Positions 7,450 through 59,649 of a DNA stretch of 64,000 nt are shown in pieces. The stretch is from positions 87,667 through 151,666 of the forward strand of contig VFKM01000012.1 in assembly GCA_009885545.1 (NCBI GenBank), read 5' to 3'. Origin of the DNA: Flavobacteriales bacterium (GTDB lineage Bacteria > Bacteroidota > Bacteroidia > Flavobacteriales_D > Crocinitomicaceae). The translations under genes and the position numbers were made by a program. How positions within the stretch are numbered: position 1 is the first letter of the stretch; every line of letters begins with the position of its first letter. The notes beneath the pieces were generated by a model. That model was not told where the DNA came from. It saw only the letters and a program-made list of their open reading frames with translations, and did not search any database.

Positions 7450-7480
7450 AAGGAGATGTTAATACAATGGGAATAGATTA

Positions 7481-8650: not shown

Positions 8651-8651
8651 A

Positions 8652-8924: not shown

Positions 8925-8962
8925 AATACTATTATACTATGATATTATTAAAACTACATCTA

Positions 8963-9676: not shown

Positions 9677-9714
9677 TTATTACAAACTCCAATAATAAAT
9701 AGTCTTTAGTGCGG

Positions 9715-10149
9715 CTAGTACTCGGGACCAAGTTTTAGTTGCAGTTTTGCTAATTTACCTTCACCTATCGAAACATTAAAATCTATAATTCTCGCATTAA
9801 CAGTATTATCTATATTGGCAATTAATATCTTTGGAGAAATTTTTACAAGTTCTAAAGCTACTCTTTGTAATATGTCAAAAGAATAATCTCTTCTAAAAAA
9901 CTTATCTTCAACACGGGAAATTGAATAAGATGAAATTAAACCCATGAGTTCATAAGGAGTATTTTTTTCATCAAACACCAATGAGATTTTACAGCTTCTT
10001 GCATTCAGATTGGTTACTGAATATTGTGTTGGACTTGGTGGTTTCATATCTTCTATTATGGAAGTTGGATCAATTTCTATTTTAGCTTCTTCACTAATCA
10101 AAAAATCGCTTCCACCAGTGTTTATTATTTGCTCTTCTAAATTCATCAT
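9715..10149 (-). CDS. Hypothetical protein
   Basis: 144 aa ORF. Confidence 0.5.
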   Translation of the reverse strand: MMNLEEQIINTGGSDFLISEEAKIEIDPTSIIEDMKPPSPTQYSVTNLNARSCKISLVFDEKNTPYELMGLISSYSISRVEDKFFRRDYSFDILQRVALELVKISPKILIANIDNTVNARIIDFNVSIGEGKLAKLQLKLGPEY

Positions 10150-10459
10150 ACTCTTCCTTGATATCTTTAGTTATTTTTTTTCCAATCTCTTCTATAGAAA
10201 AAAACAAATCTACCTCTAAGTGCAAAAGATCAATATATCTAATTTCCATAAAATATTCAGAGGAATAAGCATGATGGTTTCTAAGAAGATTTAAAATAAA
10301 TTCTTGAGCTGTATCATTTGTTTGAAATTCTAAAGATATAATCGAATGATGCTTGTCAACCGCCAAATACTGCTCACTAATAGTCCGTGAAGCAGAACCA
10401 GTTGCTGTCAACATATAATAATTTAATTCCTTTAATATTTTTTTTGAACTGGATAACAA
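10094..10459 (-). CDS. Hypothetical protein
   Basis: 121 aa ORF. Confidence 0.45.
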   Translation of the reverse strand: MLSSSKKILKELNYYMLTATGSASRTISEQYLAVDKHHSIISLEFQTNDTAQEFILNLLRNHHAYSSEYFMEIRYIDLLHLEVDLFFSIEEIGKKITKDIKEEYDEFRRANNKHWWKRFFD

Positions 10460-10474
10460 ATCTATTTGGTGGGA

Positions 10475-11446
10475 TTAATCTTCATCTGTCTCTGTTTTTT
10501 TAGTAGATCCAGGCGGTCTTCCTCTTTTTTTAACAAGACCCAAATCAACATCTCTTTTTTTCATATTTCTTGCAATAAAATCTTGAAATGTCATTAAAAC
10601 ACTGCTTTTTTTACTAAAATCTTTCAATACAAGAGATTCAACATGGCCAGTTTCTCCATCTGCTGCAAGCTCTGCAAGATGTTGAATAATAATTTTCTCG
10701 TTATCGGATGGTTCGACTGAACTTATTCTTTCAGCAACAAATAAATCACTAAAAATAGCAGCAGCAGAATCCCCATCTTCTCCACCCTCTGCATCCATTT
10801 CACCAACCTTTTGCAGTAATAGAACATACTTGTCCAGAGCTTCATCAATGATCTCAGCAAATTCTTCTGGGTCTTCATTGATATGTGCAACTCTTATCTT
10901 CAAAACTTCGCAAGCTTTTCTTACAATCTGTCTGGCCCCCTCAGTTGTGACGCCCAAAATAGCTGCAATTTCATGAAGAGGTACATCGCCGGACTTACCG
11001 CAACCATCATCTTCTTCATCGGTATTTTTTGTCGATGGTCTTCCGCGTTTTTTTGCTGTTACAACTTCTCCAGCATCCTTCGCAGCAGCAATTGCATCTA
11101 AATCATCATCTACTTCCGTTTCCGCAGAGCCTAATGATTTACTTATTTGGTTTCTTCTTAAAAATTGCTCGATATATTCAACTGGAGACAACTTAAATTC
11201 ATTTGAATTTTGTTCGATGTATTTTATAACCTCTCCGTCTGAAATCTCAGATGGAATATCTGTGGACGTAACTCGTTTAGAGCCCTCCCTTTTCATCCAT
11301 TTACCAAACTCTTTTTTTTCATCTTCACTAAATGAATCTAAAAGTTCATCATACTTTGCTTCATTAAGATGCTTTTTGACTTCTTTACTTACCATCTCTT
11401 GAATTTTGGTTCTAAGTTTTGGATCAATCACAATATTCATATTCAT
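10475..11446 (-). CDS. DNA-binding protein with sigma-region-4-like HTH and two AT-hooks
   Basis: KKRGRPSTK and KKRGRPPGSTK; PLHEIAAILGVTTEGARQIVRKACEVL. Confidence 0.6.
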   Translation of the reverse strand: MNMNIVIDPKLRTKIQEMVSKEVKKHLNEAKYDELLDSFSEDEKKEFGKWMKREGSKRVTSTDIPSEISDGEVIKYIEQNSNEFKLSPVEYIEQFLRRNQISKSLGSAETEVDDDLDAIAAAKDAGEVVTAKKRGRPSTKNTDEEDDGCGKSGDVPLHEIAAILGVTTEGARQIVRKACEVLKIRVAHINEDPEEFAEIIDEALDKYVLLLQKVGEMDAEGGEDGDSAAAIFSDLFVAERISSVEPSDNEKIIIQHLAELAADGETGHVESLVLKDFSKKSSVLMTFQDFIARNMKKRDVDLGLVKKRGRPPGSTKKTETDED

Positions 11447-11556
11447 ATTTTGTTCCCTGAAGATTACCCGATTTCTGGACGATTATCAACTAAATTCTCT
11501 TGATTATAATTTAGAAACATAATTCGCAAACTAGCCTATTATCATTAAGTAGGATT

Positions 11557-11724
11557 ATGCAGATGAAATTATTAATAGAAAAACAACATAAAGAACTCAG
11601 CGGAGTATACAAGATCACAAACATAGATAACAACAAATTCTACATCGGATCAACTATAAATTTTAAATCAAGATTTCTTCATCATAAAAAATTATTAGAG
11701 AAAAGTCAACATTATAATGATTAA
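11557..11724 (+). pseudogene. Truncated GIY-YIG endonuclease remnant
   Basis: 55 aa MQMKLLIEKQHKELSGVYKITNIDNNKFYIGSTINFKSRFLHHKKLLEKSQHYND: GIY-YIG core then stop. Confidence 0.7.
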
Positions 11725-11738
11725 TGGAAAAAGAAAAT

Positions 11739-12014
11739 CTACGACTGGGTGGAAGATGCTGAGTCAGAAGGAGGTTGCAAATCTGGAGTCTTTGAATCCT
11801 TAGAAGCAGCTTCTGTGTTCCTTCTTCCATAATATAGCGCCAGGAGCGGCGCTAGATACAAGGAAGCCTCACTTCCACTGAATGCTCTAATATCTACGTG
11901 ACCAATTTTGGCAACTATTGAAACCAATAACCATAATGAAACAATTGAAAATCCTATTGCGACCATTGTGAATGAAAAGGATTTTTTTCCATCCGAGTTT
12001 TTTAACATAAACAT
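11739..12014 (-). CDS. Small membrane protein, possibly holin-like
   Basis: Two hydrophobic segments: FTMVAIGFSIVSLWLLVSIVA and SLYLAPLLALYYGRR. Confidence 0.4.
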   Translation of the reverse strand: MFMLKNSDGKKSFSFTMVAIGFSIVSLWLLVSIVAKIGHVDIRAFSGSEASLYLAPLLALYYGRRNTEAASKDSKTPDLQPPSDSASSTQS

Positions 12015-12060
12015 ATCTGTTTCCTTCTAACTTTAACTAGAAGGAAACAGAATGATTTCT

Positions 12061-12528
12061 TCAAGAATGAATTCTCTTTTCTGATTTTTTCCACCCTCTA
12101 TGAGATTTTAATTTACCTGAAAGTAATCTGCATACACTTGAGGCTGTAAGATTGTGATCTTTACAAAATCTGCGTATATTTCCTATCTTATATCTCCTAT
12201 TATGTGGAGATAGTACGAAACCACAAATACGTTCATTAGGTTGGTTTACAGGAAGTTTCCAGCCTCTATGAGATTTTAATTTACCAGAAAACAATTCCCA
12301 AATTCCAGAAGTTCTTAAATTGTGGGTTTCACAAAATTTTAAAAGATTTTTTACTCTATAAATCATTCCATCTGGAGCTACTATTTTACCAAATACTTTT
12401 CCTTTTCGTCTTTCCTTTTTATGTTTTACTTTCTTGTATTTGTATATTCTCTTCTTTTTTGGAGGTTTTAATATTTTGAATGAATAGTTCACAATAACAT
12501 TGTAGAATATTTTAGTAAATTTATTCAT
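12061..12528 (-). CDS. Stand-alone homing-endonuclease DNA-binding repeats (no nuclease domain)
   Basis: Two repeats: RVKNLLKFCETHNLRTSGIWELFSGKLKSHRGWK and KIGNIRRFCKDHNLTASSVCRLLSGKLKSHRGWK. Confidence 0.65.
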   Translation of the reverse strand: MNKFTKIFYNVIVNYSFKILKPPKKKRIYKYKKVKHKKERRKGKVFGKIVAPDGMIYRVKNLLKFCETHNLRTSGIWELFSGKLKSHRGWKLPVNQPNERICGFVLSPHNRRYKIGNIRRFCKDHNLTASSVCRLLSGKLKSHRGWKKSEKRIHS

Positions 12529-12560
12529 TTCCTGAGAAATGCTATCGAAATCATTATGAT

Positions 12561-13274
12561 CTAAATGAATTTTGAATACATAATTTGGTGCTTTATTTTT
12601 TGTATGAAGTACAAAACGTACTCCAGGAAATTTTTTAATGAATTCTTTTCTTTTTTCCCAAAGAAAAAGTTTAGGAGCATAATGATTAGAAATAATCTTC
12701 CAATGCCGACATATATCAATAAACTAGTCAGAAGCCCTAAAGCAAATCCTCCAACACCTAAACCAACATATAACCAAGGACTAGTTGGAGTATTAATCCT
12801 CGTCAAGTTATAAACTTGATTTAACTCTGCTTCCTGAGTTCTTAATCTCAGAAGATATGTTTCTGTTAAAGTATTAATTGTCGTTTGCAAAAGAGCAATA
12901 TCTGCTATTGATCTAGCTGCCATTCTATCAAGATCAGCTTGACTATTAATCCTACATTGTTCCCTTTGACCCCTGAATTCTACCTCTACTCTTGCAACTG
13001 CTGGTCCATTGAATAATACACCAGCAAATGGTGCTGGTTGCCCAGATCTAAGTGGAGCTATAATTTCTCCAGCATCATCAGAAAATCTTACAGATGCATC
13101 GGAAACAGATGGTAAGATTACTCTATATGCAGATAGGTCAACATCAGGTACTATTAAGGAAGCATCAGAGTAGTTGTTTGGTGTTCTATGTGGAAGACGT
13201 TGCAGACTAGAGCATGATAAAATATTTAATATTAACAGTATTAAAAATATTGCTTTAAATGGTTTATTATTCAT
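12561..13274 (-). CDS. Lipoprotein with C-terminal TM segment, possible spanin component
   Basis: MNNKPFKAIFLILLILNILSCSS lipobox; start moved downstream of track start. Confidence 0.45.
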   Translation of the reverse strand: MNNKPFKAIFLILLILNILSCSSLQRLPHRTPNNYSDASLIVPDVDLSAYRVILPSVSDASVRFSDDAGEIIAPLRSGQPAPFAGVLFNGPAVARVEVEFRGQREQCRINSQADLDRMAARSIADIALLQTTINTLTETYLLRLRTQEAELNQVYNLTRINTPTSPWLYVGLGVGGFALGLLTSLLIYVGIGRLFLIIMLLNFFFGKKEKNSLKNFLEYVLYFIQKIKHQIMYSKFI

Positions 13275-13281
13275 AAAATTA

Positions 13282-13719
13282 TTAGTTAATATTTGTGTTA
13301 TTAGAGGGTAAAACTTGAAAACCAAAAAGTGAATTAACTCTGGCTGCCATTAACTCTGGATTGTTGTTTGTTTCTGCAATAATATCTCTTAGCTCTTGTT
13401 TTTTTATTTTTGAAAGATTATCCAAAGCTTCTGAATGAGTCTGATTTATTCTTACAATTGTAGCTCTATATTCACTTTCAATTCTTACTCGTTCCGCTAC
13501 ATCATTTGCATGAATTCTGTTTAGCTGTTCTATCTCTTGTCTGTGTCTTAAACTGATTGTTTCTCTTTCCTCTGTTAGTTGCTCAAGAAGCTCAGCTTTA
13601 TTTTTTGCAAATAGTATAATCCAAATTGAGACACCTCCAAAAACGACTACCCACCAATAGTTTTTAATATAAGATGCAATGATTAATAAATGTTTTTTTA
13701 TTGTTTGTAATGTATTCAT
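13282..13719 (-). CDS. N-terminal TM plus coiled-coil protein, possible i-spanin-like
   Basis: WWVVVFGGVSIWIILFA followed by long charged coiled coil. Confidence 0.4.
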   Translation of the reverse strand: MNTLQTIKKHLLIIASYIKNYWWVVVFGGVSIWIILFAKNKAELLEQLTEERETISLRHRQEIEQLNRIHANDVAERVRIESEYRATIVRINQTHSEALDNLSKIKKQELRDIIAETNNNPELMAARVNSLFGFQVLPSNNTNIN

Positions 13720-13723
13720 AGGT

Positions 13724-14167
13724 TCAGTTAAGATTTAATTTTTTATTTGGCGTGACATGACCTGGAGTTTTGAATAATTCTTCTTCAAAATCTAGATTTT
13801 CATCTTCCTCGTGGTTATGATCACAAGGTTCCTCTATTTTTTCATCATCTTCATCATCTGTCTCACATTGATGTTCAAGGCTTCCATCCATAATAGAAGC
13901 CATATATGATGATATCTCTTGTTGTATTTTTATATTATTATTAATGTCTTCTAGTCTTTTAACTACTAAAAACATTACATCCTCTAATGATTTGATTCTG
14001 CGAGACAGAGCAGAAAGTTCTGTTCCTTTCATTTTTTCTGTTACTTCCTTAAAAAGTTTTTCATTTTCATCAGTTGGCATCGTAATCAATTCCTCTCCTT
14101 TTTCCGTATCCATGTTAAAATCTGTCATGTCCTTTAACCAATCCAAAGTTTTTTTTAATTTTAACAT
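13724..14167 (-). CDS. Hypothetical coiled-coil acidic protein
   Basis: 147 aa ORF. Confidence 0.45.
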   Translation of the reverse strand: MLKLKKTLDWLKDMTDFNMDTEKGEELITMPTDENEKLFKEVTEKMKGTELSALSRRIKSLEDVMFLVVKRLEDINNNIKIQQEISSYMASIMDGSLEHQCETDDEDDEKIEEPCDHNHEEDENLDFEEELFKTPGHVTPNKKLNLN

Positions 14168-14196
14168 ATTATGAATTCCTTCTTTCTAAAACATAT

Positions 14197-14934
14197 TCAA
14201 CTACCCGAAGGTCCATCTGCTGCTGCTCCATCTGCAATTGGAGCTGATCCATAATCCCTGCTCTTGTCTTCTTTGTCTCTTGCACTTATACCATATTGCA
14301 AATCAAGTTTTGTCATTAGTTCTCTTGCAACAGTGTTGTTATAGTTTTTTGCAATATAGGTTTGTGCTCTTCTCAATATGGTTGTTTTTGGATCTAATAA
14401 AGTATCAATATTCATTATAAGCCTTGCTGTTAATGAAGCAAATGTATTAATATCAATTTTTGGTGTAGGAATCTCAGGCGCATCTGTAGCTTCTCCGCCA
14501 GCCCCCGGAGGAGCTCCCATATCTGGCATGCCCGAATCTGCTCCGCCTGGATCTGGGGCTCCTGCTGCGCCTCCTACGGGATCTGGTGGGGCTCCTGCTG
14601 CCATAGGATCGTCTGCTTCGAATAAAAATGTTTTCAGATTTTTAAAGGCTTTATAAAACTCTTCTTGAACCATCATTGGCTCACTTGATAATTCTCTCCC
14701 AAGAAGCGAGGCTTCCTTTTCATATTGAATGAATAAACTATCAACTTTTTGATCAAGAGAAATTCCTTGAGGTTGTTCAGTTGTTTGCGGAGAAATAACC
14801 TGTATAGGTTCAAAAACAGTTTCTTGTTCAAAAAGTTTTATTTTTGTAAAATTTCCAAGCCAAGGATTCTTTTGTTTATATTCTTCATTTACCCAACTCA
14901 TAACTTTTATTCTTGGTTTATTTTTCATTTTCAT
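14197..14934 (-). CDS. Gly/Pro/Ala-linker protein, probably structural
   Basis: DDPMAAGAPPDPVGGAAGAPDPGGADSGMPDMGAPPGAGG linker. Confidence 0.5.
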   Translation of the reverse strand: MKMKNKPRIKVMSWVNEEYKQKNPWLGNFTKIKLFEQETVFEPIQVISPQTTEQPQGISLDQKVDSLFIQYEKEASLLGRELSSEPMMVQEEFYKAFKNLKTFLFEADDPMAAGAPPDPVGGAAGAPDPGGADSGMPDMGAPPGAGGEATDAPEIPTPKIDINTFASLTARLIMNIDTLLDPKTTILRRAQTYIAKNYNNTVARELMTKLDLQYGISARDKEDKSRDYGSAPIADGAAADGPSGS

Positions 14935-15758
14935 ACCAACTGCTTTGAAACGATTCTATCTTGTCCAATCGGAGGCTCTCTAGATGGCATAAGTGCTATT
15001 GTTTTTGGTTCGACAGCAGCACTTACTGGTTCTATCATAAAGAGTTTATTAAGGTTACACATTTCAGCAATAATCATTCTTGCCTCAACAACTGCCCAAT
15101 TAATCTCTAACATCATTGCATTGATATAGTTTCTTCTGTCTCCTGGATAATCTTTAAACCATGCATGGTGATGCATGTCCAAAACTAATACTGGAATCCC
15201 CATCATTGGAACATTGGTTGTATGTGATTCTAAAAAGGTATTAAAATATTTTTGTTTAAAAGGATCAAAATATAACAAAACCCATCCTTCTCTTGCACTC
15301 ATAGCAGAAGCAATGAAATCTAGTTGCCATTTATCAAAGTTGCCCCATTCTTTGGCAATTCTAAGAAAAGGAACTGAATCCATTCTTATCTCAGAATGAA
15401 GATCTGAGATGTTTGTGAAGTAAAGTTCATGCAACTTCACCCCATTCAGATTATATTGTTCATCAAGCTTGAGATTTCTATAATCTGAGTTTGATGAATT
15501 TTCAATTCCTGCTTTATCCATTGCATCAATTCTAGAAGAAATTTTATTATGTGAATCAATATGATTTTTATATTGACCAAAATGAAGTTCCTTTGTAATA
15601 CCAGAAAGATATTCTGTTTTTAGATTGAATGCTCTTGGAGAAAGAATAGTTGCAACTTCATTTAATGCTTTTATTGCTCCTTCTCTAATAGAGCCAATAA
15701 TTGGCTTTAATTGTGAGCGGATATGTTGTGCTGTTTTGGTATCTAGTTTTAATTCCAT
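14931..15758 (-). CDS. Fe/Mn superoxide dismutase-like protein
   Basis: KLHELYFTNI; VLVLDMHHHAWFKDYPGDRRNYINAMMLEINWAVVEAR resembles SOD metal-binding regions. Confidence 0.7.
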   Translation of the reverse strand: MELKLDTKTAQHIRSQLKPIIGSIREGAIKALNEVATILSPRAFNLKTEYLSGITKELHFGQYKNHIDSHNKISSRIDAMDKAGIENSSNSDYRNLKLDEQYNLNGVKLHELYFTNISDLHSEIRMDSVPFLRIAKEWGNFDKWQLDFIASAMSAREGWVLLYFDPFKQKYFNTFLESHTTNVPMMGIPVLVLDMHHHAWFKDYPGDRRNYINAMMLEINWAVVEARMIIAEMCNLNKLFMIEPVSAAVEPKTIALMPSREPPIGQDRIVSKQLV

Positions 15759-15796
15759 AAGACCTTGTTATGTTTAAATATTAATGTTCGAAACAG

Positions 15797-18700
15797 TTAT
15801 TTGATCCATTGATCTTTATTGAGCTTATGAATCTTATTTGGAAATGTACTGAATCCAAAATCTGTTTTCCCAGTGAACTCAGCTACGATTATATCATTTT
15901 GTTTTAAACCTTTGCCGGTTCCTTTATAATTCCATATCATACACATATGTTCCCGCATTGATTCGCCAAACAATTTCAGTTTCAAATAAGGTTTACCTGT
16001 TTTGGTTGTTGCTAATGCTGCTGATGATACTGCTGCCCAACATTTACTATCAGGAATCCATTCATCAATTGGAATAATCCCTTCTTTATCAAGTGCTTCT
16101 TGTATATCATCTGGAACTATAAGAGAGAAATCAACAGAGCCTGCTAACTCTTGTTGAGTTAGCATTTTTTCTTCTGGAGTCCAATCAGGCATATCCTTTG
16201 ATTCTTCAATAAGATTTTTCATCAACTCTCTAACATTATTATTTTTCTTTCTAGCAGAAGTTCTTTTTAGAAGATCATAGTTTTCTATCAAGACATGGTG
16301 CATTTGCTTATAGTTGCTAAATGTTTTTTCTATCCCAACTAGATCCATTGAGTCAAGTGCTTCGAGTGAAATAAGTGTGGATAGAGCTCTCTTGTTGAAT
16401 TTGGAATGTCTCCAAGTTCCATTTTCATTGATCAAGAGATCCTCTGCTGTTTTATATGGTTTGTTTTGTTTCAGTTCCCATAAAACAGTTTTACCAACAT
16501 ATTTTAAAGAAGAAAATCCTGGAACTAGATTCTTCTGTTGCGTTGGATGAATGGCAAATCCATAAGAAGAATTGTTAATATCTGGTTTAGAGATTTTGTA
16601 TCCCAGTTTTTTTGCTTCTTTTATAGCTACTGCTTTTGGATCTTCTTGGTTTGTAGAAGATCCCTTGCTTTCTGTGCAATAGTCAAGATATGTTGTTATC
16701 CATTCATCTGGATAATATGTAAGAAAATATGCACATTGAAAAGTTGCAATAGCATAAGAGACTGCATGAGCTTTTACGAAACTATATGCCACCAACGACT
16801 TCATATTATGAAAAATTTCTGATGAAGTTTTAGAATCTATCCCATTAACTTCTTCACATTTTTTAACGAATTCTAACTGCAAAACATCTCTTTCTGCTGC
16901 TGCTTTATCTTTTTCGCTAATATTTTTCTTTGTGAAGGATTTTCTTACTCCGTCGCATTCATCTAATGGGACTCCAGCAAGTTTATGATAAATCATTAAC
17001 AATTGTTCTTGAAATACAAGGAGCCCAGAAGTTTCATTATACACTTCTTTGAGCAATGGATGTTGATAAACAACTAATTCAGGTTTTGATCTATTTTTCA
17101 AAAACTGTTTATCCACACCTAAGCCCAAAGGGCCAGGTCTAAACACACTTGTAGCTATTGCAATATCAATAATATTTTTTGGCTTCATTTGTCTCATGAA
17201 TTCTTGTGTGTTTTTTTGTACAAATTGAAACGTACCAGAAAAATGTCCTTCCCAAAACACATGTTTGTAAACCTTCTCATCAGTCATTGGATTATTGTCT
17301 GGATGAAGATGTTCAAAAAACCATTTTTTTATTTCTGGAAAACTTGGATTTTTATTTCCAGTTTTTATTAAAATTTTTCTCGTACATTCCTCAAACATTT
17401 TAAGAGTGCCTAACCCAAGAATATCAAACTTGAGTAATCCAAATTCTTCTAAATGCCTATTGTTCAGACCCTCAGCCCATGGAGTTTGTAACTGACCACC
17501 AGAGGCAATTATTGGCATTGCCTCCTTCGTATTTGAAGCCAAAATTACGCCACCAGCATGCCTAGATGTACTTTTTATTTGTTTGAACAAAACTTTTATT
17601 GTAGTTTGAAATTCCGGATATTTTTCTAATAGCTGTTTAAAAGTTGGAGAATACTCCATGGCATCTTCAAAAGTAAGAACCCATACAGCTTTATCAAATC
17701 CAGGTTCTGATTTTTTGGAGGCCAACACCTCAACTTCAATTCTGGAGGTTAATGGATTGATTTCTTCAAATGGCACTCCATGTAATTTTGCTACATCTTT
17801 GATCAAAGATCTTAATTGCAACTGATTAAAATTTGAAACTGCAATTACATTCTCTCTGCCAAAATATTCTGATAAAATTTCAATAGCATGCTCTCTATCT
17901 GCACTATCACTATCTATGTCAGCCATAGATAGTTTTTTCTTGCTTAAAAATCTGGAAAATAATAAATTAAATCTTATTGGATCTACTTGAGTAATATTCA
18001 AACAATAAGCTAACAGCGATCCAGCAGCAGAACCTCTTCCAGCACCCATTAACATTTCACTAGAAATTAATTCAGCAATTTTATAATAAGTTAAAAAATA
18101 TTTTGCTAACTTTAACTCTTTAACAGTATCCAATTCATATTGAAGCCTTTCAATATATTCTTCGTTTTTATCTCTTTTTCTCCAAATTAATCCATCTATA
18201 GCTTTGCGAACTAATTCAGTAAAAGCTGCTTTAGTTTCATCCCCCTTTTTTGAATCAATTAGAACTTTTAATTTATCTGTAGATAAATCAGAAATTTGAG
18301 ATAGCACAGGAAGTTTGATGGATTTATCAAACTCTAATTCACCTATCATTTGATGAGCTATATCGTGAGTTCTTTCAATGGCTTCACAAACCTCATCGTT
18401 ATATTTCTCAAAATATTCTTTATAAGGTTCTGAATATCTAAGGTAACTTTCCCACATTTGAATATGGTTTTTTGGATATAACTCACACTTTAGTTCATCA
18501 ATGGTTTTTGGAAGTAGATTTACATCAAAGGTTCCTTTGGTCTTTGAAGACCAAGCCATTGCTTTGTAAATTTCTCTTTCTCTCCAATGAACTGGATTAG
18601 AATAATGAGCATCGGCTGTCGCTACAATTTTTATCCCAGTTCTTCTGGAACATTCAAGGATATGAAGATTAACAAGCGACTGAATCGGTAGCCGATTAAA

Positions 18701-19513
18701 TTGTAATTCCAAGAAATAGTTTTCTGGGCCTAAAGCCTCAAGAAATTTCTCAGAATATTCCTTTAATCTTTTTTGAACTTTTTCAAAATCATGGGTGGTT
18801 TCTGGTCCCAAATCTTTAAGATTTTCATATCCAGTAAGCTCTTCATAAATTATTTTGCTGGCAGTTCCGCCAATACACGCCGATAATCCTATCACATTCC
18901 CATTAGTATTGGCGGCTAATGATTTAAAATCCATTCTTGGATAACGATAGAATCCATTAATATAAGATTCAGATGTTAACCTGAATAAACTTTTAATTCC
19001 AGCAGAGTTCTTTGGAAGTAATACTAAATGGTTTCTTTGAAACAAAGGATTAAACCATTTTGAAACTTTAGATTCAGCTTCATCTTCTATTACGGTTCCA
19101 GATTCCTCATTTTCATCCTTTTTAACATTTAATTCATCAAGTTCAGATTCAGTTGAAGCCAACTCATTCCCAATTAATTCTAATTCAGATTTTATAGTTT
19201 TTTTTCTTTTTGGAGCCAAAGATCCAGAAGCCTTTGCCTCTGCATGAAGTTTTCTCCAATCATCTAATGAATCAATAAAATACGCTTCAATCCCAGGAAT
19301 GGCTTTGAAGGCTATCCCTTTTTTCTTTAGGTCTTTTACTTTTATCTGCTGAAATGGAATTCCATTTTGATGCCCGTGATCTGTCAATGCCAAAGAATCA
19401 GATCCATTCGACAATGCAAAATCAATATGCTCTTGTGGATAGCCAATCGAGTCTCCTATAGATAATGAATGGCTGTGTAATCCCGTGAACCTATTTGGAG
19501 TTTTTTGTGACAT
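15797..19513 (-). CDS. dnaE: DNA polymerase III alpha subunit (family C), with PHP domain
   Basis: FTGLHSHSLSIGDS..ALTDHGHQNG (PHP); GAGRGSAAGSLLAYCLNI; MADIDSDSADR; SRHAGGVILA. Confidence 0.92.
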   Translation of the reverse strand: MSQKTPNRFTGLHSHSLSIGDSIGYPQEHIDFALSNGSDSLALTDHGHQNGIPFQQIKVKDLKKKGIAFKAIPGIEAYFIDSLDDWRKLHAEAKASGSLAPKRKKTIKSELELIGNELASTESELDELNVKKDENEESGTVIEDEAESKVSKWFNPLFQRNHLVLLPKNSAGIKSLFRLTSESYINGFYRYPRMDFKSLAANTNGNVIGLSACIGGTASKIIYEELTGYENLKDLGPETTHDFEKVQKRLKEYSEKFLEALGPENYFLELQFNRLPIQSLVNLHILECSRRTGIKIVATADAHYSNPVHWREREIYKAMAWSSKTKGTFDVNLLPKTIDELKCELYPKNHIQMWESYLRYSEPYKEYFEKYNDEVCEAIERTHDIAHQMIGELEFDKSIKLPVLSQISDLSTDKLKVLIDSKKGDETKAAFTELVRKAIDGLIWRKRDKNEEYIERLQYELDTVKELKLAKYFLTYYKIAELISSEMLMGAGRGSAAGSLLAYCLNITQVDPIRFNLLFSRFLSKKKLSMADIDSDSADREHAIEILSEYFGRENVIAVSNFNQLQLRSLIKDVAKLHGVPFEEINPLTSRIEVEVLASKKSEPGFDKAVWVLTFEDAMEYSPTFKQLLEKYPEFQTTIKVLFKQIKSTSRHAGGVILASNTKEAMPIIASGGQLQTPWAEGLNNRHLEEFGLLKFDILGLGTLKMFEECTRKILIKTGNKNPSFPEIKKWFFEHLHPDNNPMTDEKVYKHVFWEGHFSGTFQFVQKNTQEFMRQMKPKNIIDIAIATSVFRPGPLGLGVDKQFLKNRSKPELVVYQHPLLKEVYNETSGLLVFQEQLLMIYHKLAGVPLDECDGVRKSFTKKNISEKDKAAAERDVLQLEFVKKCEEVNGIDSKTSSEIFHNMKSLVAYSFVKAHAVSYAIATFQCAYFLTYYPDEWITTYLDYCTESKGSSTNQEDPKAVAIKEAKKLGYKISKPDINNSSYGFAIHPTQQKNLVPGFSSLKYVGKTVLWELKQNKPYKTAEDLLINENGTWRHSKFNKRALSTLISLEALDSMDLVGIEKTFSNYKQMHHVLIENYDLLKRTSARKKNNNVRELMKNLIEESKDMPDWTPEEKMLTQQELAGSVDFSLIVPDDIQEALDKEGIIPIDEWIPDSKCWAAVSSAALATTKTGKPYLKLKLFGESMREHMCMIWNYKGTGKGLKQNDIIVAEFTGKTDFGFSTFPNKIHKLNKDQWIK

Positions 19514-19553
19514 TTAATTGATTCATTATGTCACGGAATGGTTAAGAAAGAAA

Positions 19554-19748
19554 CTAGGCTGCGTCACTAAAGCTTGTCAAAATATTATTTGTTTCGGCAG
19601 TTGTTTTGTCAACTTCAAAAAGCTTTTTTATTGCTTTATCAAGTTTTTCCTCTATTTTAGAGAGCTTCTTTGTTAGTTCTTCATGATTGTCTCTGACTTC
19701 TTCTGCTAGATTTTGTATTGATTGATGAATATCTTTGTCAGTGACCAT
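19554..19748 (-). CDS. Small coiled-coil protein
   Basis: 64 aa heptad-like. Confidence 0.4.
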   Translation of the reverse strand: MVTDKDIHQSIQNLAEEVRDNHEELTKKLSKIEEKLDKAIKKLFEVDKTTAETNNILTSFSDAA

Positions 19749-19760
19749 TATGTTTAATTC

Positions 19761-20051
19761 TCACTCTTCTTGTTTTAAATATTCTCCCATATTTTTAATT
19801 CGATCTACCAATTTTGGTTTGGAAGTCGTATTCGCAGTTGTAGTTTCAACAGGTGGTAAAATAGAATTATCTTCCACAAAATTATTTTTATTATCAGTAA
19901 AAGCAGTTGGATTTGTTGGTCTGTTGGCACCGCATCTCAAACAATCCATTGTGGATTCTGAATGTACGTTTTTACAATATTCACAGATCCATTTTGAATT
20001 AGTCAGTGCTGCCATCATAGGATTGAATGGGTTGAAGGGTCTTACTTCCAT
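19761..20051 (-). CDS. RanBP2-type zinc-finger protein
   Basis: SKWICEYCKNVHSESTMDCLRCGANRPTNP. Confidence 0.6.
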   Translation of the reverse strand: MEVRPFNPFNPMMAALTNSKWICEYCKNVHSESTMDCLRCGANRPTNPTAFTDNKNNFVEDNSILPPVETTTANTTSKPKLVDRIKNMGEYLKQEE

Positions 20052-28485: not shown

Positions 28486-29448
28486 CTAAAATGACCCCGG
28501 CGCAACCTGGATACAAGTCAAACCAATATCTCGATATTGTTTAACAACAGAATCACGATCATCCAAAATATACTTAATATAATATTTTCCTTTGAACTCT
28601 CTTTCAAAGATTTCTTTTTTAATAATAGTATCTTTCCTACTGTCTCCTGCTGGACGCATAAACAGTCCATCAAAAGGAATGCCATTGGCGGTCAGCCAGT
28701 TCTCAGTAAGATCTCTACAAGATCCATCTCTTCCTGAGACTGCAAAAACAGGAACCTCAGATTCATATTCCATTTTAACAATCCCAGCAACTGGTTCGTT
28801 CACGTCGTCCATTGAAACCTTATGCCAATCATATGGTCCACGCTTTCCATTCATAAGTGCGACTGTGCCATCGATATCAAATATAATACAATGTGGCAAT
28901 TCAATATCTTGAATATATTTTTCTTCTGTGTTTGCAACTACTGAACTAGAAAACTCCATTTCTTGATCTTGTTCAGTTATCACATGAACTTTAAATGACT
29001 TTGACGATAATGATTTCTTTTGATCGTTGAATAAATTCTCCATTGATCTAATAACTTTTTTACCAACTCTTGGCGTTCTTTCTCCGTCCCTTTTAATACA
29101 GGTTTCTACAGAAACATCAAAAAATACCATTTCAAGATCAGCACGTCCATGAGACAAGGTATCAATATGCCTTTCATGTTTTGCAGATAGATTAGTATCT
29201 GCGACAATTACTGATTTTCCTGTCTTGATTGCATCTTGAATAATCTGATCACGGATTCCTAAAAGGAATATTTCATTTCCTTTTGAAGACTCTCCAGCAT
29301 CCAACATTAATCTCAGGTCATCCTTGCAAACAAGTTTAATTTTGTTTGGAAAAAGCTTTAATTGATTTTTGGCCCAAGTAGATTTTGCAGATCCAGGCAA
29401 GCCACAAGTTAAAATTATTTTAGGCTTTGAATAATCAATGAATAACAT
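28486..29448 (-). CDS. pseT: Polynucleotide kinase/3'-phosphatase (T4 Pnkp-like)
   Basis: ILTCGLPGSAKSTWAK (P-loop) plus FDIDGTVALMNGKRGPYDWHKV..VFAVSGRDG HAD domain. Confidence 0.88.
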   Translation of the reverse strand: MLFIDYSKPKIILTCGLPGSAKSTWAKNQLKLFPNKIKLVCKDDLRLMLDAGESSKGNEIFLLGIRDQIIQDAIKTGKSVIVADTNLSAKHERHIDTLSHGRADLEMVFFDVSVETCIKRDGERTPRVGKKVIRSMENLFNDQKKSLSSKSFKVHVITEQDQEMEFSSSVVANTEEKYIQDIELPHCIIFDIDGTVALMNGKRGPYDWHKVSMDDVNEPVAGIVKMEYESEVPVFAVSGRDGSCRDLTENWLTANGIPFDGLFMRPAGDSRKDTIIKKEIFEREFKGKYYIKYILDDRDSVVKQYRDIGLTCIQVAPGSF

Positions 29449-36172: not shown

Positions 36173-36514
36173 TTATTCTCTGGCAAATTGTTCATTTATA
36201 CGTTTTTCAAGTTCTGCGTTCCATCCTGGTTGTTTATATTCATTTATCATACACCAAGTTATTTCTCTTACTTCTGTATCAGATTCTCCAATACCATATT
36301 CTGGCATCAAAGAATTTAAAGAATTGAATAAGTTCATAGCATCCTCAACAGAACATCCTTTATCGATCAAAACATAAGATCTTATAAGAATATGATCCAA
36401 ATGCTTTGTTGCCTCTTTATATTTCTTTGTTTTATTTTGACTTAGGAGACTCCAATCCTCTGGAAGTTGATATGTTTTTCCTTTTACTATTTTTATTCTA
36501 TTATTTCTTTTCAT
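36173..36514 (-). CDS. Hypothetical protein
   Basis: Likely starts MKRNNRIKIVKGKTYQ just inside the RF2 stop region. Confidence 0.45.
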   Translation of the reverse strand: MKRNNRIKIVKGKTYQLPEDWSLLSQNKTKKYKEATKHLDHILIRSYVLIDKGCSVEDAMNLFNSLNSLMPEYGIGESDTEVREITWCMINEYKQPGWNAELEKRINEQFARE

Positions 36515-37626
36515 ATTTGCTATGAATTGTATTCCGTTCAACAGAATGTAGCAACCATTTTTCAAGAAACTCATTTAGATTGCCATTCAATACTGAATCT
36601 ATATCATACTCCATATGATTAGTTCTTACATCCTTCACATAAGATGTTGGATTAAAAGAATAAGTTCTTATATGCCTACCGAAAGAAATATTTTCCTTAT
36701 TTGAATTAAAAGATTTATCAAATTCTTCAGATTGCTCCTTCTCAGCCTTTTCTTCTAATGCTTGTTTTAATTTTTCTTTCGCAATACGAAAATTTTCATT
36801 TTGAGACCGTTCGGTTCTTGAATTAATTACAATTCCAGTTTCCTTATGAATAAGCCTTGAGGCACTCGAAACCTTATTTACGTTTTGGCCTCCCTTACCA
36901 CCAGATCTACATGCTTGTCTTATATAATCATTTTTGTTAATTTCAATATCAATTGAATTATCTATTTCTGGCTTCACATGAACAGATGCAAACGAAGTTT
37001 CTCTTTTGCCTTGAGAAGAATATGGAGATACCCTTTTGATTCTATGAACTCCCGATTCACCTCGCAAAAATCCAAATACATTTTTTCCTGATATTATAAA
37101 AGAAACATTCTTAATGCCAGCAACATTTCCTTGAAGTTGATTTAAAAGTTTAAATTTGAATCCTTGTTTATCAGCCCATTTACTATACATTCTTAAGAGC
37201 ATCTGGACAAAATCCTGAGATTCAGTCCCGCCAGCCCCAGCATTAATTTCAATCAATGCATTTCTATTAGATTCTTCTCCGTTTAAACAAGACTCCAATT
37301 CAAGATCTTTTAGTTGTTGTGCAATTTTGGTACTAGTCACCATCAATTCATTAAAATAAAAACAATCATCAACCTCAGATAAACATTCAATCAATTCTAA
37401 AGAATCAATTATATTAGTTTCTAATTTTTCAAATGATTCAATACAAGTTTTTAATGTTTCTAATTCTTTCAAAAGAGAAACATTAAGGTATTCTTCTTGT
37501 ACCTGCGTCTCTAATTCCTCTAAACGTATTTTCTTCTTAGAGATGTCAAAGACACTCCAAAAGCGAAGTTAGTTTATTTTGTGACCTAACGAAATCTTGC
37601 TTAATTATATTTTTTGTTTGTTCCAT
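36501..37626 (-). CDS. prfB: Peptide chain release factor 2, expressed via +1 programmed frameshift
   Basis: GAGGTESQDF, GVHRIKRVSPYSSQGKRETSF, RSGGKGGQNVNK; zero-frame MEQTKNIIKQDFVRSQNKLTSLLECL* then +1 DISKKKIRLEELETQ. Confidence 0.92.
37545..37560 (-). promoter_or_regulatory. RF2-type +1 frameshift site
   Basis: Minus strand TTGGAG TGT CTT TGA C: SD-like GGAG, CTT slip codon, in-frame TGA, then C. Confidence 0.92.
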
Positions 37627-38120
37627 TTTAATGCCTCATCATATTCTTTACTATCAGTTAAGAAACATTTTGTTTGATTATGATTCATTGCCCAAACCCA
37701 TTCGCCACCAATATCACCTCCGGGCTTAATACCATATCTTAATATAGCTTGAAGCATCTGATCTTCTCTAATATCAAAAATTGAATTATCTTCAGTGTTA
37801 GCAACCTTATAAGCTCTGCCACCTTGTCCTCTTATATCAATATCCAAAAGAATCAGACTCTTCATTGGAAGATTTAAACGAATAGTGGGAGCTATTATAT
37901 TGGTAGTTGTACACCGTACAAAATAACCTCCTCCATTTTGATATTTTTGGAAACTCCATTCTACATTAGCCCAGCTACAAGCTGACATTCGCTGATTAAC
38001 AGATGAAGGATTAAAATAAAAACTATCCAGATAAGGTTCTTTTCTATTAGGATATAATGGTTGTTGAACGTATCCAATATTTGATAAAGTTTTAATCATT
38101 TTTATTCTGGATCCCTCCAA
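37605..38120 (-). CDS. Hypothetical protein
   Basis: 171 aa ORF overlapping the prfB start. Confidence 0.55.
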   Translation of the reverse strand: MEGSRIKMIKTLSNIGYVQQPLYPNRKEPYLDSFYFNPSSVNQRMSACSWANVEWSFQKYQNGGGYFVRCTTTNIIAPTIRLNLPMKSLILLDIDIRGQGGRAYKVANTEDNSIFDIREDQMLQAILRYGIKPGGDIGGEWVWAMNHNQTKCFLTDSKEYDEALKWNKQKI

Positions 38121-39121
38121 AAACTCGGAAATCTTGGGACTAAATCTTTACTTAACTCTTGATATTTCACAGTAATCTTAGAACCAATCTTTGGTGGGTT
38201 CTTTCTTTCTTGGTCACTAAAACCAGTTCCAACATTAAACTCAACTCCATTATCCATTATAACATCCAAGGAACCCATTACTCCCTTGTGCTTTCCTTTT
38301 CCTTTTTGATATCCAATAACAGTAACTTCACAATCAAGAAAAGATTTAACTTTTAAAAGTGTGTGCGATCTACCTGACTCATATAAACTATTTGGATCAC
38401 GAAGCATGATTCCTTCATAACCGTACTTCTCTGCTAATTCAAGATGCCAAGCAACCATATCTTTATATGTTTTTTTAGAAGGAACTGCAATAATATCTTG
38501 ATCCAAAAGATCAATTTGATTTTTACCTCTTTCACTAAATGGAAACATAGCTTTTAAATCATCCATGCGCCCCATAAAGGACTTTGGATTATTTGGCATA
38601 TCAAATACCATAAATTTAATTTGCTGCCACTCCTGGTCAGCTGGAGTGCCTTTACGGACTATAGAAACAGTCTCTTGGAATCTTCCATTCCCAGCAAACA
38701 ATTCACCATCTAAAACAATCCCTTTTGGCATTAGATCTTTAAACCATTGTGGAGCATAGTATTCGTTTCCCAATCTAGACCAAAATTTGGTTCCATCCCA
38801 CCAAGCTCTAACGCCGTCTAATTTGTAAGCAACAAACCAACCAGATACATCAATTTCTTCATTCCACACATGAGCAAGTAAGCAAGGAGGAACATTCTTT
38901 AATACTATTTTTGGTTGTTTCATAATGGCAGGATTCATGCCACCAAATCCATTTGAAACATTTGCTTTAATATGTTTACAGGTTCTTTGATCAATTGGTA
39001 AAGATTGTAGTCTCCAAGCCACACAATCACAGCTAACAATACCTCCAATCATTTTAATTTCATAAGGTTTTTTCGCTGAGCCTTGAATAAAAATAGATTC
39101 ACCTTCGTTTAAATGTTTCAT
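38102..39121 (-). CDS. ATP-dependent DNA ligase with N-terminal SWIM zinc finger
   Basis: CDCVAWRLQSLPIDQRTCKHI; YKLDGVRAWW, DGELF, EGIMLRDPNS. Confidence 0.85.
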   Translation of the reverse strand: MKHLNEGESIFIQGSAKKPYEIKMIGGIVSCDCVAWRLQSLPIDQRTCKHIKANVSNGFGGMNPAIMKQPKIVLKNVPPCLLAHVWNEEIDVSGWFVAYKLDGVRAWWDGTKFWSRLGNEYYAPQWFKDLMPKGIVLDGELFAGNGRFQETVSIVRKGTPADQEWQQIKFMVFDMPNNPKSFMGRMDDLKAMFPFSERGKNQIDLLDQDIIAVPSKKTYKDMVAWHLELAEKYGYEGIMLRDPNSLYESGRSHTLLKVKSFLDCEVTVIGYQKGKGKHKGVMGSLDVIMDNGVEFNVGTGFSDQERKNPPKIGSKITVKYQELSKDLVPRFPSFWRDPE

Positions 39122-52759: not shown

Positions 52760-52769
52760 TAAAAAAACA

Positions 52770-52840
52770 TGGAACTTGATGGACTTGAACCACCGACCTC
52801 CTACAACCAAGTAAGTGCTCTTTCGCTGAGCTAAAATTCC
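52770..52840 (-). tRNA. tRNA-Thr(GGT)-like with 6-nt anticodon loop
   Basis: Acceptor GGAATTT/AAGTTCC; D-arm GCTC AGCGAAA GAGC; CTTAC TTGGTT GTAGG; T-loop TTCAAGT. Confidence 0.6.
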
Positions 52841-52845
52841 ACTGG

Positions 52846-55184: not shown

Positions 55185-56759
55185 CTACTCACTGTCTGAC
55201 GACATTAATTTAATATTATTAATTTTCTCCAACCAAGCATTTGGTTCATTATTTAAGAATGAACCGATTACTTCAAAAACTGAATCATTACCGAATCCGC
55301 CTACGTTCAATACATCCTTTTGTGTATTTGTTTGAGTTGTGACTCCTGCTGCTAGATCCACAAGAACAAGTTTTGCTTTTCGATTGCGTTTTTTGAATGC
55401 AGCCCATTCGTTAGCTAATCCTGTTCCTTGAACAAAGTAACGACCATTTGCCCAGCTTTCATTATCTGACAAAATAATGACAGATTCGCCAATTGCTTTT
55501 TGTTGGTTTAAAACCATTAACATTGCTGAACAATCGGTTCCTCCACCATTCGCCCCAATTCGATTTGTATTAGTCATGACAGTGTCACGAGGATTTAATG
55601 TTAGTTTTTCTGCTCTCGTATCAAATCTATAAACATCACAATCCTTTGATGATCTCAGGAAGGATGCAGCCATTAGGGCAGCTACTTCATTACAAGAAAC
55701 CTTACTGGTTGCTGTTCCTCTATTTCCTGTAACCGATGCTGTCATAGAAGCAGAACAATCTACACCAATAAAGGTTTTTCCTTTTAGTTCTGGAACATTC
55801 TCTGTTGCAACCTCCATAGCATCTTGCAATGCATTTTTAATTGGCATTGGAAGAGAATCATCAGTATTCTTATATGCCGTAAATAATTGATATGGAAATA
55901 CTTTTACCTTTTTAATAGTATCTCTATCTGAGAGTCTCTTCGCAATCATATTCACCATGTTTGGATTTTTTAAGACATCATGGCGCATGAATGTATTAAG
56001 ATTCATTCTTGTCATATGCCAAGGAGCAGTTTTTGCAATTTCTGTCCATTCCTCGGAAGATAGATCAAGAGCAGTCAACATTTGGAAAGGAACATTTGGG
56101 ACTTTTCTTGTTCCTTTTGATGCCTTTTTGAATGTTTCAAATTCTTGAACCACTTGTGGCAACTTTTCAAAAGCCACTTCTCTTCCAAGAAGATAAGCGT
56201 AAAAAGCTTCTCTTGCCTGTGTTGGTGGTTTTGGATGGACCATTTTAATAACATCAACCAAAGTTGGATCATTTCCAACTGAATCCTCAAGAAGTTGGGT
56301 ATCTGTTCTGTAGTTAAGAAAACTTTGGATCATTTTCTTTGCAGAAGATCCAAATGATTTTTTCCCTGTAACACCTGAACGGACTGCTTGGCAGAAATTC
56401 CTTAAAGTTTTTCCATTTCTTACAACCCTTGGGAAAACTGCCTTAAAGAGTTTGTTATCTCTTCCCATGAGAGTTGCCAGAAGCAACGCAGAAGAATCCT
56501 TCATAAAGGCAAATTCAAAAGAATAAATAGTCAACTTTGCATGAAACAAAGGACTAACTTCTTGTACAAGACGCAATACATCCTCTAAAGTTTCTTCTCC
56601 AGAAGAATAATAAGTTCCATTAAAGGTTCCTGTGCAAGCTAGTTGAGCAAGAGCCTTCTCGGAGGAAAGTTTGTAAGCTACTCCACCAGCTTTATTAGAG
56701 GTATTGGTTGACTTTACTAAATGCTTTGAGGACAATGATTTGAAAATATCTTTATTCAT
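55185..56759 (-). CDS. rsr: TROVE-vWA (Ro60/Rsr-like) RNA-binding protein
   Basis: NKAGGVAYKLSSEKALAQLACTGTFNGTYY; MKDSSALLLATLMG; HPKPPTQAREA; MIDAS VDCSASMT; GGGTDC; SDNESWAN. Confidence 0.88.
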   Translation of the reverse strand: MNKDIFKSLSSKHLVKSTNTSNKAGGVAYKLSSEKALAQLACTGTFNGTYYSSGEETLEDVLRLVQEVSPLFHAKLTIYSFEFAFMKDSSALLLATLMGRDNKLFKAVFPRVVRNGKTLRNFCQAVRSGVTGKKSFGSSAKKMIQSFLNYRTDTQLLEDSVGNDPTLVDVIKMVHPKPPTQAREAFYAYLLGREVAFEKLPQVVQEFETFKKASKGTRKVPNVPFQMLTALDLSSEEWTEIAKTAPWHMTRMNLNTFMRHDVLKNPNMVNMIAKRLSDRDTIKKVKVFPYQLFTAYKNTDDSLPMPIKNALQDAMEVATENVPELKGKTFIGVDCSASMTASVTGNRGTATSKVSCNEVAALMAASFLRSSKDCDVYRFDTRAEKLTLNPRDTVMTNTNRIGANGGGTDCSAMLMVLNQQKAIGESVIILSDNESWANGRYFVQGTGLANEWAAFKKRNRKAKLVLVDLAAGVTTQTNTQKDVLNVGGFGNDSVFEVIGSFLNNEPNAWLEKINNIKLMSSDSE

Positions 56760-56860
56760 TTTATTTATTCCTTAATATTGAAGAAGGATCGTATCATAAA
56801 CCGACAAAGAGTTGCAACCAATTAATGATCACAACTCCTTTGTCAAATGTTTCCGATGAA

Positions 56861-58180
56861 TTATTTTCCGCGCTTTTTAGGTGCTGGAGTAGAAGGGACA
56901 GTTTCTGGTTCAACTTCCTTTTTTTCTTTTGTCATAGTAGGAAGAATTCTGATAAGATATTCCTTCAAAAGTGGATGAATTGCCACAATGTTTTCCTGAA
57001 TTTGTGACGCAGCCTGGAATACTGCTGTTGCTGGTTCCGCTGGAGCTTCTTTGATAAAAGCTACCAAGTTCAGAATCTGTGGTTTTGTCATTGTTGTCTT
57101 GGACACAACATCTCCCACAAGTTGGGAGAGTTCAACATATTTCACATTTTTCTTTTCTGGTGTATCACAAAAGCTTTCAAGGCGCTTTTTTGCTTTTGGC
57201 CAATCAGTGAGGACATCCTTCGCTGTAATATCATTTAATCTATTCTTGGCAAAATCCCAAAACTTGTTTCCAGCCGCAAACCCTACCATTGATGCTGCCA
57301 TCCAAAGAAATGTCTTTTCTTCTGGATTTGAATACAAACCTGCATAGCGTAATTCTGCGTCCAGGTTTCCCCAAGCTCTTCTATCTGGGTATTTTGTATT
57401 TGGCTCATGAACTCCTTGGAAATCTAAAAGTTTATCGTTGTGTTCATTTGAGCGAATGAACTCAACAAGACAAGGATCGCAATTATCTTTTGCCCATTCA
57501 AGCCAATCTCCTACTGATGGTTCAAGATCAATGATTGCATATCTGCTGATTGCAGCAGGATCCATTGATGTAACATCAAACTGATCTCCAATGTTACAAG
57601 CAATATACATCCTTGTACCTTCATGAAGGGACATTCCATAAAATGCTTTTGAGTCAGCAAGCTGGAATGTTGCCTGTTCTACTCCCTTGATTGCTCTGTT
57701 AAGTTCATCTAAAAACAAAGCACAAGGAAATCTACAAGTTAAAGTAAGCCAAGCACACTGCTTGAAAATAGTTCCATGTTCTGAATCAAATGGAAGACCG
57801 ACAATATCTCCCTCGGTCATCTGCGAGAGACGCCTCTCTACAACAGGTAATCCCATATCATGGTGCCAAGTGCCATGAGGCATATGTTTTGTTGGAGTGT
57901 ACCCAAAATACTTCTCATTAGAGGCATTCTTAAGCCAAAACTTATCTAGAGCTTTTACAACCGAGGATTCTGCAACTAATGCTTGTGTGGCCTTGCCACA
58001 GAAAGCATAATCCTTGTATTCGTCCACAGGAATCTTTTCCGCAACTTGATAGATACCCTGACTTTTTCCAATACCTGGCCTTCCTCTAACCATTACGGCT
58101 CTGTTGGCGCTAAATGCACAGAGTAGTTTTTGGAAATTGCCCATGTTCATGTTAAATTCATTCGCCATTTTTTGTCTCAA
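56861..58180 (-). CDS. MoxR-family AAA+ ATPase
   Basis: VRGRPGIGKSQ Walker A; ALFLDELNRA Walker B. Confidence 0.82.
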   Translation of the reverse strand: MRQKMANEFNMNMGNFQKLLCAFSANRAVMVRGRPGIGKSQGIYQVAEKIPVDEYKDYAFCGKATQALVAESSVVKALDKFWLKNASNEKYFGYTPTKHMPHGTWHHDMGLPVVERRLSQMTEGDIVGLPFDSEHGTIFKQCAWLTLTCRFPCALFLDELNRAIKGVEQATFQLADSKAFYGMSLHEGTRMYIACNIGDQFDVTSMDPAAISRYAIIDLEPSVGDWLEWAKDNCDPCLVEFIRSNEHNDKLLDFQGVHEPNTKYPDRRAWGNLDAELRYAGLYSNPEEKTFLWMAASMVGFAAGNKFWDFAKNRLNDITAKDVLTDWPKAKKRLESFCDTPEKKNVKYVELSQLVGDVVSKTTMTKPQILNLVAFIKEAPAEPATAVFQAASQIQENIVAIHPLLKEYLIRILPTMTKEKKEVEPETVPSTPAPKKRGK

Positions 58181-58335
58181 CTTTCGACACAGACCTTAGC
58201 ATCCCAGAACCAATAATCCAAGCAATAACTAGAACCTTGTTTTCAAGCAAAATACATTTAAAATATGAGGACTATTTTTCAAATAGCAATATTGCTTGAA
58301 TCTTCACAGATATTTAAGGTATAGTCGAAAACACT

Positions 58336-59649
58336 ATGACAGCCAAAAAAACAAAAGGTATCAATGTACGTCACGAGCCAGACCCGACTCTTCCCGCTCA
58401 AGCATATAATTTTGATCAAAATTATATTGATATTTTATTCAAAGAGCCATTTCTTGGCTCGGTTTCAATTGAAATCACCAAGAAACCAGATTGGCAGTGC
58501 GATACAGCGTATGTAGGAGTCAACATCGAAACCATGAGTATCATCATGGGGTATAATCCAGATTTCATGCTTCAACAATCTCCAGAAAAGCGTGGAGGTC
58601 TTATTAGACATGAACTTTATCATGTTGTACTAAAACATATTTTAGATCGAGCACCTACAAATAAAACTTACAGAATGATCCATAATCTCGCTGCTGATCT
58701 CGCAATTAATTCTATAATTGGAGAAGAGAATCTGCCGGATTGTGGAATCATCCCAGGAAAAAGACCAAAACATTGCGAGGATGAAGACCTTGCAAACCTT
58801 ATTGAAAGCTTTCCACTGAATGAATCACTTGAATGGTATTTTGAAAGATTGCTTTCTTACGCAAAAGGAAAATCAGATGGAGAAGGTGATGCAGAATATA
58901 CTCTTCAAATAGGAAATGAAGATGGAGAAACAATGGATGGGCATGGTAACTGGGGTGATATTCCTGATGAAATCAAGGATATTGTTGCGGGTAAAATGGA
59001 AAACTCTTTGAGAAAAGCTGCTAATAGAGCGCAAAATAACTCATGGGGTTCTGTTCCTTCTCATATGCAGGCAGCAATTTTAGCTTCTTTAAAGAGAGAA
59101 GTTGATTGGAGAGCTGTTTTAAGAATGTTTCTTGGTCGATGCAGAAGCACAGAAAGAGATTCTACAATCAAAAAAATCAACAAGAAGATGCCATACAAAT
59201 TCCCTGGCGTTAAGAGACACAATCATGCAAGACTTTTATTTGCAGTTGATCAATCTGGTTCTATGAGTGATGAGGATGTACAGCTTTGTCTATCAGAAGC
59301 TTTTTCTTGCTCTCAAGAGGGAGAAATTGATGTTGTTAATTTTGACTGTTCAGTTGATGTAGATTCTCTGAAATCTGTTAAAAAAGGAAAAACATTTCCT
59401 TGGGTAAGAACTAGGTGTGGTGGTACGAATTTTGATTCAGTTCGTGAATTTGTATCAAACCATAAAAACAAAGGACGCTGGGATGGATTAGTAATTTTAA
59501 CAGATGGTTATGCTCCAACTATGGCAGCAGCACCAAGATTGAGAGTCCTTTGGTTAATAACTCCATCTGGAACCATGGAAGCTATTCGACCAAATGACTT
59601 AGTTATTAAAATGAATTCAGGAAAAAAATTACCATCATTACATGGATAA
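58336..59649 (+). CDS. vWA-like domain metallopeptidase (DUF2201-like)
   Basis: IRHELYHVVLKH (HExxH) and FAVDQSGSMSDEDV MIDAS-like. Confidence 0.82.
   Translation: MTAKKTKGINVRHEPDPTLPAQAYNFDQNYIDILFKEPFLGSVSIEITKKPDWQCDTAYVGVNIETMSIIMGYNPDFMLQQSPEKRGGLIRHELYHVVLKHILDRAPTNKTYRMIHNLAADLAINSIIGEENLPDCGIIPGKRPKHCEDEDLANLIESFPLNESLEWYFERLLSYAKGKSDGEGDAEYTLQIGNEDGETMDGHGNWGDIPDEIKDIVAGKMENSLRKAANRAQNNSWGSVPSHMQAAILASLKREVDWRAVLRMFLGRCRSTERDSTIKKINKKMPYKFPGVKRHNHARLLFAVDQSGSMSDEDVQLCLSEAFSCSQEGEIDVVNFDCSVDVDSLKSVKKGKTFPWVRTRCGGTNFDSVREFVSNHKNKGRWDGLVILTDGYAPTMAAAPRLRVLWLITPSGTMEAIRPNDLVIKMNSGKKLPSLHG

Follow-up and report, generated by a model that had tools for sequence, protein, structure and literature searches.

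A T4-like phage appears to express its RF2 through the RF2-sensing +1 programmed frameshift of bacterial prfB genes, a reading to which we give a probability of about 0.8 on the strength of the sequence. The gene occupies the minus strand of the 64-kb window (the whole stretch of DNA analysed) and is written in two frames that meet at a prfB-type slippery site. It retains the conserved RF2 residues, it is encoded on a phage contig, and two further phage contigs carry the same arrangement. By analogy with the bacterial gene, we infer the frameshifting itself, its sensitivity to RF2 and its benefit to the phage.

The programmed frameshift in prfB, by which RF2 sets its own production, is a textbook example of autoregulation. 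It has been surveyed in >12,000 bacterial genomes, and the cassette is near-invariant wherever synthesis of RF2 depends on shifting (PMC12421855). The 2025 prfB survey deals exclusively with bacteria, its single mention of phage being in a reference, and the paper on Lak phages names RF2 but describes no frameshift. The open-licence literature searched yielded no account of prfB frameshifting in a phage, and the novelty is limited to that scope: within it, the virus-borne RF2 with the bacterial switch is new, and the same switch on bacterial prfB is known.

The predicted frameshift site

An ATG (37626-37624) starts a minus-strand frame of 26 sense codons that is closed by a TGA (37548-37546) in the context GGAG-TGT-CTT-TGA-C, in which TGT lies at 37554-37552 and CTT at 37551-37549 (Table 1). 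The preliminary description gave this frame, its stop, the site and the +1 continuation, and called the whole an intact bacterial-type cassette in a phage RF2 gene. All of its coordinates are exact on the minus strand, and the elements, their spacing and their location are as it claimed. There is a leader ORF with a start codon, a UGA at the position homologous to the bacterial switch (at the Asp that opens the conserved part of RF2), a CUU_U slip and a trailing C; the Shine-Dalgarno (SD)-like element 3 nt upstream of the CUU is present as GGAG, though weak. The 14-base motif GGAGNNNCTTTGAC has a single occurrence in the window, against a mean of 0.03 in shuffled sequence (3 of 100 shuffles contain one copy).

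Upstream of the site, the +1 frame reads TAA-CTT-CGC-TTT-TGG-AGT-GTC-TTT-GAC; its stop lies seven codons ahead of the site, and the interval contains no ATG, GTG or TTG. Full-length RF2 therefore needs the shift, and the fallback start is an internal TTG at 37472. The duplex between GGAG and the anti-SD, a 4-bp contact only, was computed at -6.4 kcal/mol versus -10.7 for the E. coli site. Given the weaker contact, basal frameshifting may be lower at the phage site, and the set-point of its response to RF2 could differ from that of E. coli. A hairpin is predicted over the site (window 37480-37570, z -2.0), with z of -2.6 and -0.9 at two other phage sites described below (L060 and L069, respectively) and of +0.7 and +0.2 at two cellular sites, a sample too small to interpret.

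Table 1. Features of the phage RF2 locus, in window coordinates
Feature	Position	Strand	Details
Zero-frame leader ORF	37546..37626	-	26 codons + UGA; product MEQTKNIIKQDFVRSQNKLTSLLECL*; from sequence and gain in prfB profile match
GAGG, possible ribosome-binding site	37634..37637	-	7 nt 5' of ATG 37626; from sequence
Internal SD-like GGAG	37555..37558	-	3 nt 5' of slippery codon; bacterial prfB spacing
Slippery CTT_T	37548..37551	-	P-site Leu codon and first base of the stop
In-frame stop TGA, then C	37545..37548	-	weak UGA-C context; C at 37545
+1-frame RF2 body	36501..37547	-	348 residues + stop; starts at GAC 37547, stop 36503-36501
Stop-recognition tripeptide SPY	37020..37028	-	residues 174-176; RF2-type SPx, not RF1 PxT
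Catalytic GGQ	36885..36893	-	residues 219-221; peptidyl-hydrolysis motif, invariant in both alignments made
Switch-loop Phe for usual bacterial Trp (SFGRHIRTY)	36681..36683	-	residue 289; from residue comparison with viral and bacterial RF2s
171-aa ORF 5' of RF2	37605..38120	-	22-nt overlap between its end and the RF2 start
ATP-dependent DNA ligase	38102..39121	-	two genes upstream of RF2

The RF2 protein

The best profile for the +1 frame, by a wide margin, is NCBIfam prfB, at 347.1 bits, with RF1 models at 203-218. Joining leader and body raises the prfB score to 354.5 bits (versus 203.8 for prfA and 218.2 for PRK00591), which places the product nearer RF2 than RF1, and moves the start of the match from profile position 18 to 5, a gain of 13 positions. 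Because joining lifts the score and lengthens the N-terminal match, the leader peptide appears to be true RF2 sequence. The closest relatives in a search of solved structures are the B. subtilis and E. coli RF2s, and an AlphaFold model of the body (mean pLDDT 83) has RF2 8p16 as its top PDB match. Profile, structure search, model and the GGQ and SPY motifs bear out the original identification of the gene as RF2.

Core residues of the protein are intact, and identity with bacterial RF2s is about 40-47%. Neither the +1 frame nor the joined product reaches the curated TIGR00020 cut-off of 370 bits, which is a naming threshold and marks no functional residue; L060 and L069 pass it, at 408 and 420. 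The lower score is consistent with fast divergence of this RF2. Because the sequence is fast-evolving, scores below the cut-off and has lost the usual switch-loop Trp, its release activity at UGA and UAA and its stop-codon range are putative.

The SPY tripeptide had been described as a departure from the SPF known from RF2. It is in fact ordinary: 24 of the 106 bacterial RF2s compared have it, too many for a novel motif. The replacement of the switch-loop Trp by Phe, overlooked in the preliminary description, is the rarer feature: Phe occurs in 12 of 18 viral RF2s versus 1 of 106 bacterial ones, and Trp in 105 of the 106. In the E. coli and Thermus ribosomes this Trp stacks in the decoding centre. 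A Phe that is common to most phage RF2s and near-absent in bacteria is a separate, testable hint that these factors act differently in the decoding centre.

The phage and its possible host

The contig (157,908 bp) is that of a phage, as had been supposed, and of a T4-like one: it encodes a T4-type portal with an intein, rIIA, a sigma factor, a PolIII-alpha-like DNA polymerase, DNA ligase, polynucleotide kinase-phosphatase and 11 tRNAs. The intein splits the portal gene (G000:C147 75602-78958; L019 15602-18958). The polynucleotide kinase-phosphatase (window 28486-29448) and a possible RNA ligase, recognised by eye from its opening residues (G000:C147 46245-46868), accompany the tRNA genes and could form a tRNA-repair pair. 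Elsewhere in the window, a Ro60/TROVE-vWA protein, an ATPase (phrog_1297) and a DUF2201/VWA protein are encoded consecutively (55185-59649), and ARAGORN assigns a two-base anticodon (gg) to a tRNA-like gene at 52769-52841.

The bin that holds the contig comes from a Bacteroidota-like lineage, is 89% complete and has RF1 and an ArfB-like gene; a search of this incomplete genome found no cellular RF2. SD motifs are associated with 27% of the contig genes versus 9% after shuffling, and with 4% of sampled bin genes versus 5% (Fisher p 5e-8). Because contig genes use SD motifs and bin genes do not, the bin is doubtful as the host, and the phage may infect another organism. The RF2 genes compared from the genus of the bin are single-frame, without the switch, and the order's remaining families give a mixed picture. 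Portal-relatives in IMG/VR are about 50% identical, on contigs of up to 260 kb, and no RF was detected in them; the two that were sampled likewise use SD motifs, and TGA closes the majority of their genes. In the window phage, TAG closes about 11-15% of ORFs. TAG recoding, considered as a reason to carry RF2, was rejected, being unseen in this phage at that level of TAG use.

Other phage RF2 genes and phylogeny

Two further IMG/VR phage contigs encode a leader ORF, a slippery CTT_TGA and a +1 RF2 body with the same spacing. One (L060; IMG/VR 3300037310_000404, 127 kb) has the site GGAG-TTC-CTT-TGA-T. It is a less clear-cut case, since an ATG also precedes the site in the +1 frame, and its phage status rests on IMG/VR, as a scan of five large proteins from the contig revealed no phage hallmark. 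The other (L069; IMG/VR 3300028800_000066, 88 kb), with the site TTGGTG-TCG-CTT-TGA-C, places its RF2 in a 19-tRNA array and has a large terminase on the same contig. An RF2 with a canonical site, on a 13.5-kb contig (L055), groups with alphaproteobacteria and was set aside.

Nearly all other IMG/VR RF2 genes compared at full length are a single frame from ATG. The exception (L073; IMG/VR 3300031758_008397, about 855-1910) is an RF2-like gene whose leader ends in CTT-TAG-AC; it lacks both an SD-like element and an in-frame ATG ahead of the body. Its contig appears to use the standard code, and the arrangement may reflect a shift at an RF1 codon, initiation at a non-ATG codon or an indel. A 214-kb contig with a single-frame RF2 (L058; IMG/VR 3300011008_000004) has a portal match that reads through two TAG codons, and this suggests a TAG-recoded phage. 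In an exploratory comparison, 13% of ORFs (44/334) end in TAG in the switch phages versus 4% (7/179) in RF2 phages without the switch (Fisher p 6e-4), which, with ORFs called mechanically on contigs that differ in base composition and are in some cases related, is a lead and not a result.

In the trees made, the window RF2 sits on the longest or a near-longest branch. The careful tree, in which its branch is the longest, resolves several separate phage RF2 groups and puts the window RF2 outside Bacteroidota; an AU test rejects neither a Bacteroidota placement nor one that joins the window RF2 with L060 and L069. Shared ancestry with these two is thus neither shown nor rejected by the sequences. 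Recent capture from the lineage of the bin was considered and finds no support, given the single-frame RF2s of its genus-mates, an identity of at most 47% to RF2s of the order, and the placement outside Bacteroidota. Searches of IMG/VR with the window RF2 ORF alone (P0002) and with the DNA polymerase returned nothing, as did megablast of window positions 1-20000 against phage records. The exact strong site AGGRGGTNTCTTTGAC occurs in 90 IMG/VR stretches, none of them with RF2, and the best 80 matches kept from a scan of genome contigs are all bacterial-type RF2s with at most 45% identity.

A proposed RF2 switch and its alternatives

We propose that a ribosome on the leader would arrive at CUU-UGA-C, where termination at UGAC would compete with slippage of tRNA-Leu, and, by analogy with prfB, the supply of RF2 would decide the outcome. 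Ample active RF2, from host or phage, would lead to termination and release of the 26-residue peptide. Were RF2 scarce, a pause, the weak UGAC and base-pairing between GGAG and the anti-SD would allow tRNA-Leu to shift from CUU to UUU, and the ribosome would go on to make the full-length protein. In this way an infecting phage would supplement UGA and UAA termination only where capacity falls short, and would be spared the cost of excess RF2. The preliminary description proposed that the phage adjusts its own RF2 to UGA termination capacity. Autoregulation is a reasonable conclusion because the leader stop is UGA followed by C, but the pool sensed would probably be that of host and phage together, so adjustment of the phage's own factor is one interpretation among several.

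So, is the cassette a working switch? Several observations count against it: the cassette is missing from most RF2 genes of phages, which can therefore do without it; the portal-relatives of the window phage show no RF; the 4-bp SD-like element is weaker than canonical; and the RF2 itself is long-branched and falls below the profile cut-off. The first and third of these would suit ancestral baggage, in which the +1 shift would still occur, held at a near-constant level by ample host RF2, and would lower output with no regulatory benefit; Flavobacterium johnsoniae showed no obvious loss of laboratory fitness once its frameshift was removed (PMC8710568). Yet the site elements were kept while the rest of the gene diverged from bacterial RF2, and deletion of one base would make RF2 constitutive, so the long persistence of the site points to some use; we consider baggage unlikely, though worth keeping in view. 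The prevalence of the switch-loop Phe in phage RF2s could instead point to a factor for ribosome rescue or stop-codon takeover, for example one that tolerates sense or recoded codons through an altered switch loop. This we find improbable for a phage that appears not to recode TAG.

The stop could also stem from an extra T in CTTTGAC introduced in sequencing or assembly, or from a genuine frameshift mutation in a gene under decay, and the cassette would then be a coincidence. The sequence is a metagenome assembly, known here from the assembled contig alone, and the long-branch RF2 looks relaxed, but GGQ and the core residues are intact, and an indel leaves the GGAG at 3-nt spacing, the choice of UGA as the stop, the trailing C and the exact homologous position unexplained. 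Because two other phage contigs carry the switch with the same spacing, it is not a lone indel, and we regard this account as very improbable. The ORF caller reports a 323-aa ORF from the internal TTG, as if the shift were unused and the working product began there. Such a product would be about 25 residues shorter and without the first helix of the model (H2-18), and the leader has an ATG and a GAGG and extends the prfB profile match, so we give an internal start hardly any credence.

The RF2 switch remains our preferred reading, and its presence in a phage suggests that infected cells can be limited by termination at UGA. A phage that keeps it, set against the majority of phage RF2s without it, offers a clean comparison for what selects RF2 autoregulation. 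More speculatively, and at somewhat less than even odds, some large phages may have a distinct class of RF2 marked by the switch-loop Phe, a few of them placing it under a frameshift that reads the pooled RF2 of host and virus and releases the virus's own factor only when the cell runs short, in effect a virus-encoded translational homeostat.

Comparison with known systems

The window gene resembles bacterial prfB in its leader of about 25 codons, its SD-like element 3 nt from the CUU and its +1 RF2 body. The sites of E. coli (AGGGGG-UAU-CUU-UGA-C) and F. johnsoniae (AGGAGG-UAU-CUU-UGA-C) share with it the CUU_U slip and UGA-C. Unlike these genes, it is phage-encoded, its SD-like element is only GGAG, its body is about 40% identical and its switch loop has Phe. 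The RF2s of Lak megaphages, which infect Prevotella, are likewise phage-encoded and have SPY. However, in the three Lak genomes examined RF2 is a single frame with no leader or slippery site and with a switch-loop Trp, it groups inside Bacteroidota RF2s without the switch, and Lak phages recode TAG whereas the window phage keeps the standard code. L060 and L069 share with the window gene the leader, the CTT_TGA slip, the +1 body and the switch-loop Phe. They are only 36-40% identical to the window RF2, and they differ from it at the site, L060 in having TGA-T and an upstream +1-frame ATG, and L069 in having GGTG for GGAG.
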